Positions 3,433 through 17,955 of a DNA stretch of 64,000 nt are shown here, piece after piece. Source of the DNA: Cryptosporidium bovis (Eukaryota > Apicomplexa > Conoidasida > Eucoccidiorida > Cryptosporidiidae); the NCBI GenBank assembly GCA_009768925.2, contig VHIT02000011.1, positions 372,001-436,000 of the forward strand, written 5' to 3'. Under the pieces are notes generated by a model that was given only the letters and a program-made list of their open reading frames with translations, did not search any database and was not told the DNA's origin. Position numbers and translations under genes: made by a program. The stretch's first letter is position 1; every line of letters begins with the position of its first letter.

Positions 3433-4674
3433 ATGTTATCAGAGTTGAATATAAGTAACTCTTTGAGGATTTTGCTATATTTAAGTGAAATAGATAAATC
3501 GGAATACCTTATTGATTATGTTGACTTTTCAAACAATGAAGAGTTTACTGATGAATTTCTATTTATTAAAGAAGAGAACACATTAATAATTAGCTCAAAG
3601 TTTAAGGAAGCATTATTGGTAGAGATATATGAATTTATAAGAAAACATTGTCCTAATTCAAAAGATACTGACTATGACTCTAAATTTGGGTCAATTAGAA
3701 CTCAAACCATTTTATACAGGTTCTCTATTGTTACTCCACTAAAAGAAGCAATATTGTGGGATTTATTAACCTTACTAATGCTTATTGAAGGTATTAGTCC
3801 TATTATTTGGGAAAAAAAGAATTTTATATTTAATACATTTAAGATGGAATCTAATCGTGATTATTTGAGGTTTATTCTATATGAGATTAAATTAATAAGA
3901 ACAACACTAAATACTGTGTGTAAATCAGGTGACATTTGGAACTTTTTGGAAACTATTACATATGAATATTTTAAAGTTTGTGTTATAATTGGGAACGAAA
4001 AAGAACCAAGAGAAGAGTGCATCTTAAATTTCCATGATGAATTTATTCAAAAGCAACTCAATATTCATGATAACAACTACTATTGTTGGAGTTTTGTAAA
4101 TTGGATAATTTTTACTTTAATTCCTTCAATAGGAAAACTGAAATGTGACGGTGAATTCCAATACAGTGAAAACTATTTAAATATATCAACAAAATGGGTG
4201 ATCAGACTTCTTTTAACACAACCATTTAATTTTGGTGGTTACAACACATTAGTTAATATAATAGAGTGCAAAATAAAAAGTCACGTTAAAAACAACTATA
4301 AAACGGACGAACTAATTAAGATAGCATATTCCAAGGAAATAATGGATTTACTTGAGAAAATAATTGAAGCGTTCAAGGAGAGTCCCAGAAATTGTATTAC
4401 TGTTGTCTTACATTTTAGATATTGCTTATTCATTCTAATTTCTAGTTACATTAGAGATAAGGAATATGGGATTTTACTTGAAAATGAAGTTAATTGGATT
4501 AAAGAAATTAACTTGAACGAAGCAACGGGAAAAAAAGATGTCATGGAAATTAAGGAACATATTGAATTCCTAGAGAAGGAGCTTACTCGGTACATCAACA
4601 GCATTGATAACTACTCAAACATTATTAACAAACTATCTACAATTCGAAATAATTTTATTGATTCACAACTATGA
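3433..4674 (+). CDS. Hypothetical helical protein
   Basis: A 413-residue protein with no family I recognise. It has no signal peptide. Hydrophobic patches (for example around the segment LLTLLMLIEGI and the segment WSFVNWIIFTLIPSI) look like buried helices of a soluble alpha-helical fold rather than clean membrane spans, although a peripheral membrane role is not excluded. The last 60 residues are charged and could form a short coiled coil. The first ATG of the frame is used. The gene lies 98 bp upstream of the SAS-4-like gene on the same strand, which need not imply a shared function in this organism. The uninterrupted 1.2 kb frame in AT-rich DNA supports a real gene. Confidence 0.75.
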   Translation: MLSELNISNSLRILLYLSEIDKSEYLIDYVDFSNNEEFTDEFLFIKEENTLIISSKFKEALLVEIYEFIRKHCPNSKDTDYDSKFGSIRTQTILYRFSIVTPLKEAILWDLLTLLMLIEGISPIIWEKKNFIFNTFKMESNRDYLRFILYEIKLIRTTLNTVCKSGDIWNFLETITYEYFKVCVIIGNEKEPREECILNFHDEFIQKQLNIHDNNYYCWSFVNWIIFTLIPSIGKLKCDGEFQYSENYLNISTKWVIRLLLTQPFNFGGYNTLVNIIECKIKSHVKNNYKTDELIKIAYSKEIMDLLEKIIEAFKESPRNCITVVLHFRYCLFILISSYIRDKEYGILLENEVNWIKEINLNEATGKKDVMEIKEHIEFLEKELTRYINSIDNYSNIINKLSTIRNNFIDSQL

Positions 4675-4773: not shown

Positions 4774-6324
4774 ATGACAATCTTCCGGGGAGTTGAAGGT
4801 GATTCCGGAGATCTATTTGAATTAGACAATGTTACGATGTCTGAGGCGTATTTAAATGCAAATAATTATTATGATGATGATTTTGTGGGAAACTCCTATG
4901 AGCAAGGATTGGAGAACTTTGGTATTGAAAGTGATTTTTCTGATAAAGGCATCGAAAATGTTTTGAATATTAGTGCTGTGAATGCCTTAAATGGGACATC
5001 TTCTCCACATCCACAGGAAAATATAAAAACACCTGTCAAAAGGCCTTATCTTAGAAAGGGAGAAGGAAAGTCCTTAGTTATAAGCAATTCGAGAAAAGGT
5101 TTAAAAAAGATAGGAGAAACCAATTCTAATTTATCAAAAGGAGAAAAAAAGGCGCATAGTGTTCCAAATACTTCAATTTCAACTTTTGAATCTGCGGATT
5201 CCAGATTAGCAACAGAAAATAGCGAGTTGGAAATAAACTACGATAAGCTGATTCAGAAGAAACTAGATTTAATTGACGAGAAAATTGAATATATTCATGA
5301 GACACAAGAAGATATCATTAAAAAGAAAACAATGCTTGCTAATGAGAAAAAAAAATTTGAGAATTTTAAAATTACGTTTGAGAAAGAGCTTAGAATGAAA
5401 TACGAAAAAAGTCTTTTAAAATTAGAAGAGGAAGTAAAAATACTCAAGAAGGAAAATAGCAAACTTGCAAAAGAAAAGGTCAATTTAAATGACACAATCA
5501 CAAGACTCAAAATGACAATAAAGAATAAGGATGTTGAAATATCCCGTCTTAGGGACGTTACCACTTTAGGGAGAGAGGAGAATGAAAGCAAAATCGATGA
5601 AAAAAGAATAAAAGAGGGAATTTACAATGATAATAGGTTAAAGTTAAATAGTGGAGAGCCGAGTTATTTTGTTTCCGGTTCATCAAGTAATTCAAAGCCA
5701 ATTTCACACAGGTCTATGGTTTCAAATGAAATCACATCTGCGGATAAGGACATAATAATAGAGGACTTTATTTCAAAGTTTAATTTTGAAAAAGAACTTG
5801 ATTCTCTATATGGAATCCTGAGTACTTCTTTCAACTTTTCACTTGATAGCATTGAGTTTACATCTCTCCCAAAAATTCCAAGTGATTTAAATAAACCTTG
5901 GTGTGATATAGAGAAACCGTACAAAATCAATAAGGACGATATCTCAAAAACAATGACTTTCAAATTTCCAAGCGGATTAGTTGAAGTTGTATTTTTCGAT
6001 GATAGCAATGACTCAATTTGTCCTGTAAATACAAGAAAATTACTCTGGACGCATTTGGGTTGGTGTATTCTGGTTTACCCAAACAACGACATAAAGGCAA
6101 TTAAACCAAATAAAGACATTACCTACCATTATGTAAACAAAGACATTGTGAGATGTGTAGTTGACATCAATAATTTTTCAAATTATGGATTTGAGTGCTC
6201 CAAATTACATATAAGCAAATTCTTTTCCATTGGACAGCTCCAGTGTTTTGATCCTGATACAAAGAAAACATATATAGTTCACTCGGACAACACTTTACAG
6301 ATATTAAATGATTCATGTATTTAG
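4774..6324 (+). CDS. SAS-4/CPAP-like centriole assembly protein
   Basis: A 516-residue protein with the three landmarks of the SAS-4/CPAP (CENPJ) family in the right order. Residues 88-98 carry the short basic motif KRPYLRKGEG that in this family precedes the coiled coil. Residues about 150-262 form a strong coiled coil. Residues about 393-512 resemble the TCP10 C-terminal (G-box) beta-sheet domain, with alternating strands such as KFPSGLVEVVFF, NNDIKAIKPNKDITYHY and SIGQLQCFDPDTKKTYIV. In other organisms the G-box binds STIL/Ana2 and SAS-4 sets centriole length and tubulin addition. The overall length is shorter than animal CPAP, and I see no clear tubulin-binding PN2-3 segment in the acidic N-terminus. 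The assignment is my inference from motif reading. The 3' end overlaps the convergent next gene by 12 bp. Confidence 0.7.
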   Translation: MTIFRGVEGDSGDLFELDNVTMSEAYLNANNYYDDDFVGNSYEQGLENFGIESDFSDKGIENVLNISAVNALNGTSSPHPQENIKTPVKRPYLRKGEGKSLVISNSRKGLKKIGETNSNLSKGEKKAHSVPNTSISTFESADSRLATENSELEINYDKLIQKKLDLIDEKIEYIHETQEDIIKKKTMLANEKKKFENFKITFEKELRMKYEKSLLKLEEEVKILKKENSKLAKEKVNLNDTITRLKMTIKNKDVEISRLRDVTTLGREENESKIDEKRIKEGIYNDNRLKLNSGEPSYFVSGSSSNSKPISHRSMVSNEITSADKDIIIEDFISKFNFEKELDSLYGILSTSFNFSLDSIEFTSLPKIPSDLNKPWCDIEKPYKINKDDISKTMTFKFPSGLVEVVFFDDSNDSICPVNTRKLLWTHLGWCILVYPNNDIKAIKPNKDITYHYVNKDIVRCVVDINNFSNYGFECSKLHISKFFSIGQLQCFDPDTKKTYIVHSDNTLQILNDSCI

Positions 6325-9589: not shown

Positions 9590-9754
9590 ATGTCTACGGA
9601 ACATCAACACCCTCCTAATAAAGCAGCTATTTATATAACAAAGACGACAAAATATCAAAAGTCAATTTTATTTTGGCAATTCAAAAATCAACAGGTATCT
9701 AAAAGCAATGATACCGATAAATTATCCACAAAATTGAAAAAAATAAAATCTTAA
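9590..9754 (+). CDS. Possible small ORF directly after RPB5
   Basis: A 54-codon frame whose ATG begins at the base right after the RPB5 stop codon (TAAATG). The predicted peptide is basic, with a Lys/Thr-rich first half and one Trp. I recognise no family. At 9692-9700 the sequence CAGGTATCT resembles the splice donors seen in this window, so the frame might be a first exon, but no convincing downstream exon was found before the convergent gene at 9924. It may also simply be 3' UTR of RPB5. Low confidence. Confidence 0.18.
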   Translation: MSTEHQHPPNKAAIYITKTTKYQKSILFWQFKNQQVSKSNDTDKLSTKLKKIKS

Positions 9755-9923
9755 ATCAATATTGCCGAGAATTCATTTGAGAAACTCAAGCAAAGTTGAG
9801 TTTCAATGAATAAAGAGCGAACCAGGAAAAAAACTAGGATATTAATAGGTAAATTAACACCTGAATTAGGTTAATTATTAGGCAATCGTTAAAGAGTTTG
9901 TTACCATTAATTATATATTTACA

Positions 9924-11796: not shown

Positions 11797-13536
11797 TTAT
11801 GCCCCACGCGAGTTAGAGTTATCGTAAATAAGGATATTCTTGAGCAACATTTGTAAATTCGCTGATTTCTGTGGGAAACTTTGATAATCCGCATTTAATT
11901 GATTATTCTCCAAGGTTTCAAATTGCGGAGGTGTTGATTGTATCCTAAAGAAGTCAGAAAATGATGAATTTTGCTCATATTTGGATGTACTTGGGATATG
12001 GGGCGCCTCAAGGACATCAAATCGCGACTTCTCTATCAAGAACGTGCTTTCTAGTTTAGGATTCATCCTTATTTTGTTCGCTTCTGGTCTCTGACGACTT
12101 TGCTTAGGATTTCCCATAAAATTGCAATGGAGTTGAGCTGTATTTGGAAACGAATTAATATGATGGTTATTGCTGCCATTATTTCGAGGAATATTACAGC
12201 CAAAATACATGTTTTGGTACCCGTTTTTATGCTTAGACTCGAGTTGATCCTGATTGTTGTTCTTTCCACCACGAGACGAACCTTCCACTATTGGACGGAG
12301 GGTAAGAGGAAGCAATGCATCTTCACCTGCCTTTAGTTGTATTTTCAGAGGCTTTCCAAAGAATTTAATACCAGCAATAGAACGAATAGCTGCCCATGTA
12401 GAAGGTTTGTTGTCGTAACTAATAAATCCAAAACATCTATTGAGTTTCCCATTATTACTTGCAGTCGGAAGACGAATTCCAACAATATGTCCAAACTTCT
12501 GGCAAAGTTGCATTAAAGTTACCTCTGTCCAGTCATTTGGAATCCCATATATAAACAAGTTCGCACCACCAGGTCCATCTCTTAACAGAGTTATTGTGGT
12601 GGGAAGGAACATTCTGTCATCTTTAGATTGATTTACAGGTAAACTTGTTTGGAGGGTGCCCGTATAGGAGTCCCAATACTCACACACCCCATTCTCTCTG
12701 TAATATTGCATCCATCTTGCTGGTAATTGGTACATCTTTTGATCTCTCCTGAAGCAGTCCCAGGCTCCGAAAAAACTGTTGTTTTTTTCTATTCTGTTGA
12801 AGGACGGAAGCCATATTTCGGTATCAGTTGGTTGATACATTATCATTCTTCGGTTTATTTCTTGAAACTCGGTAATTATTTGTTCGGCTTCTTGAGGATC
12901 ATACGCGGACTCAAAACTCGAAGATAAAACAGATGGTGGAGGAGTTGGAGAAATGCATGCTACTAAACGGTGAAAGGGAACATTTTTGAAATGTCTGCGA
13001 AGATGAAGATTCTGGATAACTTTTTGAGCACAACTCCATGTTTTGAATGTGGCATATGCTGTTCTCCATTCTTTGTAGCTTGGTTGATAATTTAATGCAA
13101 GTAGTGTATGACCATCGTCTTCATTTCTGGCATCTAAAGAAGAAAGGATTACGGACTTCAAGTATTCAAAGGACACATTTGGTGGAATATTACCAATAAA
13201 CACAATAGGATATAGTAAACCACATGGTATTACGGCTATTGGATTGTCATTGAAAATTGAGTTGTTTAAGCATCTAGTTTTGGATTCTTTAGAGTTGCAA
13301 ATAGGTTCATCGCCCAAATTTCCAATAAAAGAGCCAAATTCATTTAGTACCAGACCGTTATTCTTGATAGAATCATCCCAAGCAATCTCCTCGCTCTTCA
13401 TACAGGGATCCTGAACAGACCAGCCAATATCCGAGGCTGTTGATTCACTTAGTGCTTGGGATTGCGTAATCAATTCTTCATCAAAAGATGAAGAAAAGTA
13501 ACTTTCCGGTACTTTATTACCATGGCCCTTATACAT
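11797..13536 (-). CDS. CELF/Bruno-like RNA-binding protein with two RRM domains
   Basis: A 579-residue RNA-binding protein. The clearest domain is an RRM at about residues 325-404, with RNP2 (LFIYGI) and RNP1 (RCFGFISYD). The preceding GPGGANLFIYG and following KPLKIQLK closely follow the third RRM of CELF/Bruno proteins, which regulate splicing and mRNA stability. A second, more divergent RRM-like region lies at about 111-192 (IVFIGNIPPNVSFEYL). Between them, about 271-300 reads like a WW domain that has lost its second tryptophan (LPARW ... GTLQTSLP), recalling plant FCA-type RRM-WW proteins. The C-terminal 170 residues are Asn/Gln/Ser-rich and probably disordered. The ATG at 13536 is the first in frame. 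Confidence 0.82.
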   Translation of the reverse strand: MYKGHGNKVPESYFSSSFDEELITQSQALSESTASDIGWSVQDPCMKSEEIAWDDSIKNNGLVLNEFGSFIGNLGDEPICNSKESKTRCLNNSIFNDNPIAVIPCGLLYPIVFIGNIPPNVSFEYLKSVILSSLDARNEDDGHTLLALNYQPSYKEWRTAYATFKTWSCAQKVIQNLHLRRHFKNVPFHRLVACISPTPPPSVLSSSFESAYDPQEAEQIITEFQEINRRMIMYQPTDTEIWLPSFNRIEKNNSFFGAWDCFRRDQKMYQLPARWMQYYRENGVCEYWDSYTGTLQTSLPVNQSKDDRMFLPTTITLLRDGPGGANLFIYGIPNDWTEVTLMQLCQKFGHIVGIRLPTASNNGKLNRCFGFISYDNKPSTWAAIRSIAGIKFFGKPLKIQLKAGEDALLPLTLRPIVEGSSRGGKNNNQDQLESKHKNGYQNMYFGCNIPRNNGSNNHHINSFPNTAQLHCNFMGNPKQSRQRPEANKIRMNPKLESTFLIEKSRFDVLEAPHIPSTSKYEQNSSFSDFFRIQSTPPQFETLENNQLNADYQSFPQKSANLQMLLKNILIYDNSNSRGA

Positions 13537-16500
13537 TGTTCTGCATTAATATAATACACTTACTTTACAGGCTTCCAGGCATGCAACAAATTAATTAATC
13601 CACAAAGAATTGATTTGCTTTAAGAAGACAGCATATATTTGGCGGCAAGTGTCTCTAGTGGGGTTGTCAGCCAAATCATCTATCTGGCAAACTAATTTAA
13701 AATCTGGTCTACGCATAATGCAAGATATGCCAAAATTAACTTTCAAAATAGTATGTAACGCAATTGCATACCAATATCATGTGGTTTATTTACTGTTTGC
13801 ATCAAAAAATAGCGAAGTAGAGCAAGGCCATTTTTGGCTTTAGACAGAAAATGCAGTTTGACAAATACGAATAACATTTAAATACTAATCTAGAAAGTGT
13901 TAATTTACTAAAAAAATATAGATATAATTATAGAACGTCTATTTCATATGATTATTGCACATTTAATTCTATTTCTATTGTGTCTAAAACCTTGATAATC
14001 CTTTGTTTATTTCTTTTCCAAATTATTAACTTTGTTTCTGTTCTGTATGCAGATACGGAACAAAAATTAAAATGTGATGAACTACTAGGAAATCATTAAT
14101 TTATATCAATAGTATATTCCAAAATTGTGAGTGTTTTTAACGCCTCCACATTTATTTTGCTCAAAACAATTACATGATTTTCTCGAGACAATGCCAACAC
14201 AAAGCGGGATCTATGCCGTACGATTTTTCAACAGATTTTTTTTCAAGGATAGATACGGATATTGGAGTTGCATTTCATCCTTCTACTAGCATTACCCAAT
14301 ACTTCTATTTTAGATCTTATTATTGTTTAGCATTTCATCAGAAATAATAGTTTTATTGTGGGAGTGGTGCTGGGGAGTTTTTAAGGATTATCTCTAATCT
14401 TTTATCAGTAACTAAATTCAATTTTAAATGAAATCTCACACTAATTTGTGATTCCCCTCACATGTAGGCATTTACTTGAATTAATAAATCCTGTTTAGAT
14501 TGATATACTTATCAATTTTATACATTCAAAACGGTTAAATTTATAAGATGCGTGTACAAAGATTAGGTAAGCCAATCTATATAATGTGTTAAGTGGAATT
14601 CCTTCAATTTAAATCATAGTTAGGGTCTAATTTTTCCTGAAAGTACGCCTTCATATTGGTGCGGAATTCAGCTAGTTTATGTATTGGTTTATTTTAGTGA
14701 TTTGGAGTAGTTTATACAAAAAAGTATGCTCAAAGTAAACTACGCTCATCATTTTATGTAAATATCTTTTTAGTTGTAATATGGAAACATGTTCATCGTG
14801 TAAATTCAACCAACTAAATCAAGGTTAGATTCTTGTTGCAATTTATTATAGGTATTTTTTTCAAAAACCAGAATAATTGTAATTTATTTTACAAACGTTT
14901 TATCGTTATAACAGTCTATGCATGTGTATATATATTGATATATATGTTCATTTGATTACTACTAACAAATTTGTTTTTGAAAAAAAAACATATGATAAAG
15001 TGTTGTGTGAATATTAAGTTAAATTAAGAAAATATTGAAGGTGTCTTTATTAATAAAAACAGCAGTTTATTTCACTTTCAGTAAATACGCACGTTACATG
15101 TTGAAAATGTTCAAATTTTCCAGCAAAGCAACTGGTGTTAATAAGCTAGTATAATTGAAACTCTAAATAAAAAAATCTGGTAGAAATTAAATAGACTTGA
15201 CTATCATTGAGCGATCCTGGTTTTGAAGGAAAATTTTACCAGAAAATAGTGAAATTCAAGGGTAATATACACAATAAAAGCGTAAAGTCAGGACAACTGA
15301 AGAAAAAATGATTAATAAGTTTATATTGATACCAACAAATAAACCAACATTTAATAGAATTTGGGTGAATTCGTTTAATATCAGATATACAGATTATTGT
15401 TTTCTTTATAACTGTTAACAACAAATTTTTAAGTCAATATAAGGTAGGCCTTCGGCATTCGTTGATGAGGATATGAATACCAAAAAGTCATTTTGAAGTC
15501 TATCAGAAATTCAGACTAATAATTTCACTGCTGAGTAAAAACCAAACGAGGATAGAATACATTCATCACGTATTGACTGTCTCAAGCCATAACCTCGGGG
15601 AAAACGGTGCACAAAGTGCGTTCTTCAGCCGCACCTGGGGAAAACGTGCCTACTCCAAACATCACCCACAAAAAAAAAGCAAACAAAACCCGAAATCGAG
15701 GGGAAGCCCCAGTAAGGCCTTCGATTGAACAAGGAGGGACATGAAACAGGTCCAATTAGCACCAGCACAGGCTGAATATAAACGAAACAAACACCCATAC
15801 ATAATTAAACAATCGCAAAAGGAGTGGAAACAGAGACAACTTTTTTCTCTAGAAAATACCAACTGATTCGCAACAAATCAACTAAAAACAGCTCAGCTAT
15901 CTCTGGTTTGTCGGCTATTGGAAATGCAGTTCCCAGCCGTTGCTGACAACATCATAGCTGCAATAGCAATATAATCAGCGTTGCAGTCTTCAGGTAAAAT
16001 GAAGACAAGTGATTTCGACGCATTCTCCTCCCCTAGGCAATTGAGGTAGCAAAGGAGACATGTGCCGACGCATAACCGCATATTAATATTCGGCGGTTAC
16101 ACATTATAAATAAAAAGTTTATGCAGCACATTTGAGTCACTCTCCAATAAATCTAATTTCATTAGATTTATTTTATAGGAACTAAAGGTTTAATTTTGTT
16201 ATACATTTGAGCATTTTGGAAATTCTTCCGAATATTGTAAAATCGTTTCTATTCAGATACTGTAATACTCCTGATGTATCGGCAACTGGTATTGCGCATT
16301 GATGTAAGGATTTCTTCCTTTAGATGGATTAGGTAAACTTATGCGACTTAGTGTATATGATCTACCGTGTGTTGTTTTTCCGTAATAAAGTGTTCATAAC
16401 ACCAATTAGACAAAAAAGGATAGCCATTTTTTGTATTTGCCTAATTGAAGAATACATGTAGTTCTTTTTTGCCGCACAAAACCCGCAAAAAGGTTCTGAG

Positions 16501-16653
16501 GAGGCTGACTAAAACGAGGGGGAGGGGTTTTTTAGGTTCTTTCTAATGAAGAAGGCCAATTGATGTATGTTGTTTTTGATATTCATACTTGATAACCTCT
16601 GACACTATTGCAATTTCAATTCAAATATTGTACTTTGAGGGTTGTTCTGAAAA
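13537..16653. other. Largest gene-free stretch in the window
   Basis: About 3.1 kb between the CELF-like gene (minus) and RPN9 (plus), so divergent promoters lie at both ends. The left two thirds (to about 15.55 kb) is very AT-rich, with no coding frame I can support and no tRNA signature. The part at about 15.58-16.10 kb is clearly richer in G and C, contains many nested inverted repeats and is described separately as a candidate structured RNA locus. Short frames at 13610-13843, 15236-15424, 15662-15862 and 15893-16081 show no domain. Long non-coding transcripts are known in Cryptosporidium, so this stretch could also be transcribed as one. Confidence 0.6.
15585..16105. ncRNA. Candidate structured non-coding RNA locus (class and strand unknown)
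   Basis: About 520 bp that is richer in GC than its surroundings and has many perfect inverted repeats. Left part: GCAC/GTGC at 15609-15619 closed by AAC/GTT at 15603-15622; GCAC/GTGC at 15631-15649; AATCGA/TCGATT at 15694-15726 enclosing GGGG/CCCC at 15700-15710. Right part: CAGCTAT (15894-15900) pairs with ATAGCTG (15954-15960) around nested stems TTGTC/GACAA, GGCT/AGCC and GGAA/TTCC; CTGCAA/TTGCAG at 15958-15986; GTCTTCA/TGAAGAC at 15986-16006; TCTCC/GGAGA at 16024-16058; TAACCGC/GCGGTTA at 16073-16099. Two copies of GGGGAAAACG (15597, 15637) and two of CGACGCAT (16017, 16067) are present. T-runs that could end Pol III transcripts lie at 15841-15846 (plus), 15884-15888 and 15670-15678 (minus). 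A minus-strand RNA from about 16105 to 15884 would hold all right-hand stems and end in U5. I could not match it to RNase P/MRP, SRP, telomerase, U-snRNA or snoRNA signatures. Confidence 0.4.
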
Positions 16654-17955
16654 ATGGATACTTTAGGAATGGATAAAAGAACTCCAAGTGAGCAATTGGA
16701 TTTCGAACTTGAGAGAAGGGCGGAGAGTAGGGACGAGATTGTAAAGTTAAAATCATACTTAGACCAAAAGTTATATTTTCAATTTTTAGACTCCTCTCTG
16801 TCTTATATTTCAAATGAATCAATAAAGTTTATTGGGAACGAATTGCTTTGCTATTTAGTAAATGTGATATTACCCTTGAGAAGTAATTTTGACCCACTGA
16901 AATTTGCATCATTTGTCGGTGAGGTGATTGCACGCAGTTCCACAACTATAAAGGTGAATTTAGATGTATTGAATGGTATAATAGGTAATGAGGACTGCTA
17001 CGAGAACAAGGAGGAATATAATAATGCAAGTTTGACGAGGGAGCAGAATATTGCCCCGAAACAAGAGATTCAAGGTGACTTATATTTGAGATGTCTACTT
17101 GCACTGGAATACTCTAAAAGTAAGGATTATTGCTATGAGTGTGAAGATTTGTTGGAATTCTTAACTAAGAAGCTTGATGAGTATAGAGGAGTAGACACAT
17201 CAATAATGGGGTTATATCATCGTTCATATGCATCGTTCGAAAGAACTATGAACAGAACAAGTAAATTCTATAGACAAACAATGCTTTATCTTACGTACAC
17301 TCCAATAAACCTTATTCCACTGAAGGAAATACCATCTCTGGTTTACGAATTGGTCATTGCAGCAGTAACATCTGACGACATCTACAACCTGGGCGAGCTT
17401 GTTTTACATCCGATAATTCAGGAATTTAGCTCTATAAACAAGGGATTAAATACTGAAAACATCGACCAATCCCTGCTCAATAAATTCAAAGAGAATTCGT
17501 GGTTATTGGAGGTATTGGTTTCATTGCATGAGGGTGATATGGATTCGTTTGTGAAAGTGGCAAAAGAACACCAAAGCAAAATAGAGGGTACCCCGCTTTC
17601 TTTGCCAGAAGCACAAATATCGATTAGGAAGAAAACTACGACCCTGGCACTGATGGATCTTGCTTTCAAGAAAGGCAAGGATGAACGCAATATTTCCTTT
17701 GACGAGATTGCAAATCACTGTGGAATCGGCACGAATGATATCGAACTGCTCGTAATGAGGGCAATAAACATGAATTTGATTAGAGGCTTTATTGATCAGG
17801 CCTCACAGACAGTAGAAGTAACCTGGGTACATCCTCGGATTCTAGACAAAACGAGAATACAACTCTTAAAGGATAAATTAGATAATTGGATTTCCTCAGC
17901 TGAAAGGCTGGTATCCCACTTGGAGGACGTCGCTCCTGAGCTTGTAAATTGTTAG
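16654..17955 (+). CDS. RPN9: 26S proteasome regulatory subunit RPN9 (PSMD13)
   Basis: A 433-residue PCI-domain protein matching the lid subunit RPN9/PSMD13. RPN9 is one of six PCI subunits that scaffold the proteasome lid next to the deubiquitinase RPN11. The N-terminal helical repeats cover about residues 1-290, slightly longer than in yeast or human. The PCI winged-helix is at about 325-400, with the family-typical segments TLALMDLAFKKGKDERNISF, CGIGTNDIELLVMRAINMNL and VTWVHPRILD, followed by a final helix (DKLDNWISSAERLVSHL). The ATG at 16654 is used. The gene is convergent with the mitochondrial carrier gene, with 34 bp between stops. Confidence 0.93.
   Translation: MDTLGMDKRTPSEQLDFELERRAESRDEIVKLKSYLDQKLYFQFLDSSLSYISNESIKFIGNELLCYLVNVILPLRSNFDPLKFASFVGEVIARSSTTIKVNLDVLNGIIGNEDCYENKEEYNNASLTREQNIAPKQEIQGDLYLRCLLALEYSKSKDYCYECEDLLEFLTKKLDEYRGVDTSIMGLYHRSYASFERTMNRTSKFYRQTMLYLTYTPINLIPLKEIPSLVYELVIAAVTSDDIYNLGELVLHPIIQEFSSINKGLNTENIDQSLLNKFKENSWLLEVLVSLHEGDMDSFVKVAKEHQSKIEGTPLSLPEAQISIRKKTTTLALMDLAFKKGKDERNISFDEIANHCGIGTNDIELLVMRAINMNLIRGFIDQASQTVEVTWVHPRILDKTRIQLLKDKLDNWISSAERLVSHLEDVAPELVNC

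Follow-up and report, generated by a model that had tools for sequence, protein, structure and literature searches.

A GC-rich block of intergenic DNA in Cryptosporidium bovis, at positions 15585-16105 of the 64,000-nucleotide stretch analysed here (hereafter the window), is probably a gene for a small RNA, encoded on the minus strand. The grounds are a box C/D-like fold in the right half of the block and the likeness of the left half to the DNA that follows five known small-RNA genes of this genome. We put the chance that some small-RNA gene of the sn/snoRNA class lies on this strand at about two in three, and consider the narrower reading, an unannotated gene of that class with a C/D-like 3' domain, to stand at about an even chance. 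The first-pass annotation had proposed a structured non-coding RNA here on account of densely packed stems. A non-coding RNA gene is still the best reading of the block, but the argument from stem density is weak and about half of the block is probably flank. The minus strand is favoured by the C/D geometry, by the A-poor flank and, somewhat, by folding. The features to which we refer are as follows, from the upstream end of the proposed RNA.

16146-16172, no strand assigned: perfect 12-bp palindrome AATAAATCTAAT-N3-ATTAGATTTATT, just outside the block and upstream of the proposed RNA.
16104-15889, minus strand: proposed RNA body of about 215 nt, with a GC content of about 45%, balanced bases and no coding signal, overlapped by the best minus-strand folds of the gap.
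16104-16068, minus strand: predicted hairpin A, with a 13-nt loop and 12 bp, of which 3 are G-U pairs (A-C mismatches if the plus strand is read).
16067-16016, minus strand: predicted hairpin B, about 18 bp interrupted by small internal loops.
16006-15986, minus strand: predicted hairpin C, GUCUUCA/UGAAGAC with a 7-nt loop.
15960-15889, minus strand: box C/D-like core with stem I CAGC/GCUG, a 1-nt spacer and stem II UUGUC/GAUAG.
15955-15949, minus strand: putative C box AUGAUGU, agreeing with 6 of the 7 letters of the consensus RUGAUGA.
15896-15893, minus strand: putative D box CUGA, agreeing with the consensus.
15888-15884, minus strand: run of five T, read from the sequence directly after the C/D terminal stem.
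15839-15583, minus strand: putative A-poor 3' flank (12% A), rich in T, G and GC; the maximum-likelihood low-A segment.

The window is a piece of contig C38 (453,252 bp). Whole-genome searches covered 9.06 Mb in 43 contigs, and background values were drawn from a 264-kb sample made up of the 64-kb window and 10-kb pieces (20 sampled loci), in which gaps may be cut at piece ends. The block lies in a divergent gap between a gene for an RRM protein on the left (11797-13536, minus strand) and the Rpn9 gene on the right (16654-17955, plus strand), the latter with 98% identity to Cryptosporidium xiaoi and 86% to C. ryanae. The region had been described as gene-free, and this was confirmed: the ORF-free gap measures 3105 bp, and only one other of at least 2 kb (2279 bp) occurs in the 264-kb sample. 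The block sequence has one match in its own genome. Searches among phages and plasmids gave no match, and no relatives were found among the genome contigs and viral contigs searched.

Base composition is the trait by which the block stands out, its GC content being exceptional. The earlier statement that it is richer in GC than the surrounding non-coding DNA was strongly borne out: at 0.446 per 500 bp the block has the highest non-ORF value in 264 kb, the next place reaching 0.384, and it lies about 4 sd above the non-ORF background for 500-bp windows (mean 0.279, sd 0.04, 1102 windows in 264 kb).

The stems noticed at first pass are real. CAGCTAT/ATAGCTG pairs 15894-15900 with 15954-15960, GTCTTCA/TGAAGAC pairs 15986-15992 with 16000-16006, and TAACCGC/GCGGTTA pairs 16073-16079 with 16093-16099. 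Their density, however, exceeds that of shuffled sequence only mildly, which is weak evidence for an RNA. With loops of 3-60 nt, the block holds 7 pairs of perfect arms of at least 6 bp, where shuffles average 4.8 and 48 of 200 have 7 or more, and 4 pairs of at least 7 bp, where shuffles average 1.07 and 8 of 200 have 4 or more. Folding of the whole block against shuffles gave z scores of -0.85 on the plus strand, which is not unusual, and -1.88 on the minus strand, which is modest. The best local 120-nt fold in the gap, formed by the minus strand of 16057-16176, has a z of -4.25 and extends beyond the block; the plus strand at the same place gives -3.76. The best scored window of the block itself (z -3.51) ranks 19th among the 1451 intergenic windows scored out of 2556, a background that includes only 16 windows starting between 15480 and 16110. 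Fold stability is thus not exceptional and is ordinary for intergenic DNA here.

Some other intergenic stretches fold more strongly. Within the window, 9681-9880 on the minus strand has z scores of -5.3 and -4.5, stronger than those of the block. The strongest folds among the scored intergenic windows are on the same contig, at C38:43681-43840 (minus strand; 3681-3840 of locus L020; z -8.9) and C38:65001-65160 (plus strand; 5001-5160 of locus L021; z -6.9), and neither stretch has an Rfam match at gathering score.

With stem counts this close to those of shuffles, one could ask whether the block is unremarkable intergenic DNA whose GC content rose by random drift, or DNA of foreign origin. The distance of its GC content from the non-ORF mean argues against this, as do the single match in its own genome and the lack of any in phages or plasmids, and we regard such an origin as highly improbable; foreign DNA was rejected on the absence of phage and plasmid matches.

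A protein gene was rejected because of codon usage, GC3 and the absence of homologues. Codon log-odds for the ORFs of the block are at most -0.12, below the 5th percentile (0.008) of 62-codon pieces of real genes, and their GC3 is 0.38-0.50 against a gene mean of 0.30. Protein-coding exons, either decayed or unrecognised, would explain the high GC and also a 62-aa minus-strand ORF whose start resembles, by eye, a signal peptide. That ORF itself has log-odds of -0.12 and a GC3 of 0.50, and no homologue of it was found in a protein database containing C. xiaoi and C. ryanae proteins; the two minus-strand ORFs tested against Pfam gave no match. Exons are therefore a very doubtful explanation.

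To judge the left half of the block, eight genes of this genome were used as yardsticks, each in RNA orientation: U1, U2, U3, U4 and U5, which are generally transcribed by RNA polymerase II (Pol II), and RNase P, SRP and U6, which are usually transcribed by RNA polymerase III (Pol III). An A-poor, GC-rich flank lies 3' of the RNA in five of five genes in the U1-U5 group and in none of the other three, bearing in mind that the U4 and U5 genes are neighbours, so that the five are not fully independent. The first 300 nt 3' of the RNA hold 9-21% A and 48-58% GC in U1-U5, and 30-33% A and 25-32% GC in RNase P, SRP and U6. The corresponding stretch at the block has 15% A, as in the U1-U5 group, and 43% GC, which falls between the groups. 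The lowest-A 200-nt window shows the same division of the yardsticks, with 3.5-12.5% A and 53-62.5% GC in U1-U5 against 24-28.5% A and 29-31.5% GC in RNase P, SRP and U6. The U4 gene (C31:11117-11252, plus strand, L041) and the U5 gene (11923-12040, minus strand, L042) stand tail to tail with about 670 bp between them.

This signature is rare outside ORFs. When 200-nt windows were screened for a GC content of at least 40% together with A or T of at most 17%, 19 of the 4281 non-ORF windows in 264 kb were selected, all in a single cluster at 15511-15891 that is A-poor on the minus strand. Inside ORFs there were four more places, of which three encode protein repeats of low complexity and the fourth a stretch rich in K and E. 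A three-segment statistic of A content, computed on gap-strand stretches each cut at 1300 nt, does not by itself set the block apart from other gaps and is useful only in combination with GC: the block has a dLL of 21.9, and the best of 68 such stretches reach 23.2, 20.4 and 20.0 with a segment GC of 0.21-0.32. The low-A segment begins 32-34 nt past the RNA 3' end in U1, U4 and U5, and 50 nt past the C/D-like core at the block; the onset is blurred for U3 (-157 nt) and U2 (-204 nt). Going by U1, U4 and U5, where it is sharp, a minus-strand RNA of the block would be expected to end close to 15872. About half of the block, from 15839 to 15583, is probably 3' flank and not RNA body.

The flank also bears on the polymerase. 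Termination by Pol III had been suggested from T-runs, and a run of five T does stand at 15888-15884, directly behind the C/D stem, but the resemblance of the flank to those of U1, U2, U3, U4 and U5, and not to those of RNase P, SRP and U6, argues against Pol III.

A different account of the composition is a regulatory GC-rich island, a promoter or enhancer of the divergent RRM/Rpn9 gap from which no stable RNA would come. It would suit the two divergent genes that flank the block, the ordinary fold stability and a CpG observed/expected ratio of 0.83 in the block against 0.71 in the remainder of the gap. We nevertheless think it unlikely, since the GC content and base skew are unmatched by other non-ORF stretches in the 264-kb sample and are matched by five known small-RNA genes, and since a promoter island would not be expected to differ between strands in this way.

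The right half of the block supplies the second line of evidence for a minus-strand RNA gene. Read from 15960 to 15889, the minus strand has the order CAGC-U-AUGAUGU ... CUGA-GCUG, in which stem I adjoins both boxes with spacers of 1 nt and 0 nt. A box C/D kink-turn has one base ahead of the C box and none after the D box, and the core shares with box C/D snoRNAs its D box, six of its seven C-box letters and a terminal stem with kink-turn spacing. The first-pass annotation had found no match to snoRNAs, a view that the presence of this core does not uphold. The core differs from box C/D snoRNAs in the seventh C-box letter, which is U and not A, in its scant free guide and in its lack of an Rfam match. 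The U can pair with the G preceding the D box, as the first of the five stem II pairs. Enforcing the kink-turn stems costs 0.6 kcal/mol, with -21.3 kcal/mol for the constrained fold against -21.9 kcal/mol for the free one. Little free guide remains beside the five pairs of stem II and an inner hairpin; as the likely guide stretch falls partly within stem II, a methylation guide is not obvious.

We scanned the 264-kb sample (528,000 strand bases) with a strict rule consisting of a 4-bp stem I, spacers of 1 and 0 nt, RTGATG, 30-130 nt and CTGA. The single match was 15960-15889 on the minus strand, and among 3000 dinucleotide-shuffled versions of the minus strand of the block 3 also matched; as the rule was set after the candidate had been seen, with the seventh C-box letter left free, these uniqueness figures are flattering. 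A looser rule gave 8 matches in the sample, both strands taken together.

It is conceivable that the C/D-like core is a coincidence and that the minus strand carries a gene of the sn/snoRNA class of another kind, such as an H/ACA RNA, a cluster of small RNAs or a nuclear RNA peculiar to the lineage. The 3' flank signature holds without any C/D motif, the C box is imperfect, and the core is preceded by hairpins A, B and C. The C/D geometry, on the other hand, is unique in the 264-kb sample and adjoins the flank, and H/ACA families gave no match on the minus strand, a piece of snR37 at 9.6 bits (cut-off 47) lying on the other strand. On balance this reading is unlikely, and a gene with a C/D-like 3' domain is preferred.

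A PSE-like site (approximately RCCATCATNNANTCGTGT) stands at -54 to -58 of U1, U2, U3, U4 and U5, and a 3' box ACCAATGTATC follows U1, U2, U4 and U5, with one mismatch at U4; U3 has none within 3 mismatches. At the block, where 15800-16653 was scanned on the minus strand, no PSE scores above 4.0, whereas the five training sites score 24-30, and no 3' box occurs within 2 mismatches anywhere in the gap. The block resembles U1, U2, U4 and U5 in that its 3' flank, read on the RNA strand, is poor in A and rich in GC, and differs from them in having neither a PSE at the usual distance nor the 3' box, and in the lower GC content of its flank. U3 of this genome, itself a C/D RNA, likewise shares the flank, but it has a PSE and the block has none. 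Over the 100 nt that precede the RNA, GC content is 23% at the block, counted from the assumed 5' end, against 32-44% for U1, U2, U3, U4 and U5, and no Sm site was seen in the block when sought by eye.

PSE-like sites were noted elsewhere too. A weak variant stands at -61 of U6 (score 5.5), and SRP has a partial site recognised by eye only (score -2.5). The top-scoring PSE-like site of the 264-kb sample is at C38:4460 (minus strand, locus L018; score 16.5), possibly marking another RNA gene; no A-poor non-ORF flank was found there in the sample.

A further feature upstream of the proposed RNA is the palindrome at 16146-16172, the only perfect hairpin in the 64-kb window with arms of at least 12 bp (loop 3-60 nt). 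Its 12-mer has one other copy in the loci searched, about 120 nt upstream of U1, so that the upstream regions of U1 and the block have this sequence in common. The recurrence was noticed post hoc and about 0.6 copies would be expected by chance in the sequence searched (our estimate), so the suggestive part is its position. It is possible that the palindrome is a distal promoter element.

Comparison with known RNA families placed the block in none of them. Rfam at gathering score found nothing in the 64-kb window, and at E values up to 10 gave only weak matches at the locus, all far under the cut-offs. The earlier judgement against RNase P, SRP and the spliceosomal RNAs was upheld, as the block has no Rfam match and these RNAs were located elsewhere, all over their Rfam cut-offs: RNase P, U3, SRP, U6, U2, U4 and U5 on other contigs, and U1 elsewhere on C38, where it falls between the sampled pieces. 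For RNase MRP RNA (RF00030), a search of 13400-16800 with E values up to 10 found nothing, and RNase P- or MRP-like motifs sought by eye in the block, beyond the Rfam models, led nowhere. Genome-wide, no RNase MRP RNA exceeded the Rfam cut-off, the best candidate being C24:107276-107370 at 17.3 bits; a telomerase RNA was not found either. ARAGORN (bacterial code) found no RNA in the block. Rfam was also run over the 20 sampled loci, in case known RNA genes should account for other stretches of high GC, and gave no matches. Among the matches listed in our literature search, none was by its title a study of Cryptosporidium snRNA promoters or telomerase RNA.

We also considered whether the locus could encode the telomerase RNA of Cryptosporidium, as a minus-strand transcript of about 700 nt from about 16600. 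Its template would be the A-tract AACCUAAAAAACC, and a box C/D domain at the 3' end would confer stability, as in trypanosomatids. Telomeres here are of the TTTAGG type with a variable number of T (C1 and C38; L015 and L018), TTTAGG and TTTTAGG both being common and TTAGG and TTTTTAGG rarer, and the mixture of TTTAGG, TTTTAGG and TTTTTAGG could come from slippage on an A-tract template. In the putative Leishmania telomerase RNA, a C/D snoRNA domain lies about 300 nt downstream of the template (PMC4229120). The minus strand from 16538 to 16524 reads AACCUAAAAAACCCC, with the template-like AACCUAAAAAACC running from 16538 downwards, 5' of the C/D domain. The template-like AACCTAAAAAACCCC at 16524-16538 (minus) lies upstream of the block on its strand. 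The match amounts to one 8-mer, 426 nt upstream of the block. Because by our estimate chance alone would give such an 8-mer about 0.7 times per gap, the telomerase reading is kept as a very remote one; the block itself has no template of at least 7 nt, and the stretch from the template-like site to the block is AT-rich.

Returning to the favoured small-RNA gene with a C/D-like 3' domain, we infer that the block is transcribed, and propose the polymerase, protein partners and role as follows. From the likeness to U1, U2, U3, U4 and U5, Pol II would transcribe leftwards, its start possibly driven from the side of the palindrome. The RNA body would run from about 16104 to 15889 and end in the C/D-like kink-turn core. 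That core may bind the 15.5K/Nop56/Nop58/fibrillarin set, which would confer stability and nucleolar targeting, and trimming could leave an RNA of about 70 to 215 nt shielded by box C/D proteins. The A-poor flank from 15839 to 15583 would serve as a termination zone, as is assumed for the five known genes. The RNA would have a role in rRNA processing or modification.

A 2025 review gives only nine snoRNAs for C. parvum, 5 C/D and 4 H/ACA (PMC12246861), and Li et al. 2021 (PMC7840661) describe C. parvum lncRNAs as mostly antisense. Unannotated RNAs are thus to be expected, the lncRNAs differing from the block in being mostly antisense. If our reading is right, the block would be a Pol II-class RNA gene, probably of C/D type, that Rfam has missed, and the rule of an A-poor, GC-rich 3' flank could be reused to scan Cryptosporidium genomes for further RNA genes, for example those of RNase MRP and telomerase RNA.
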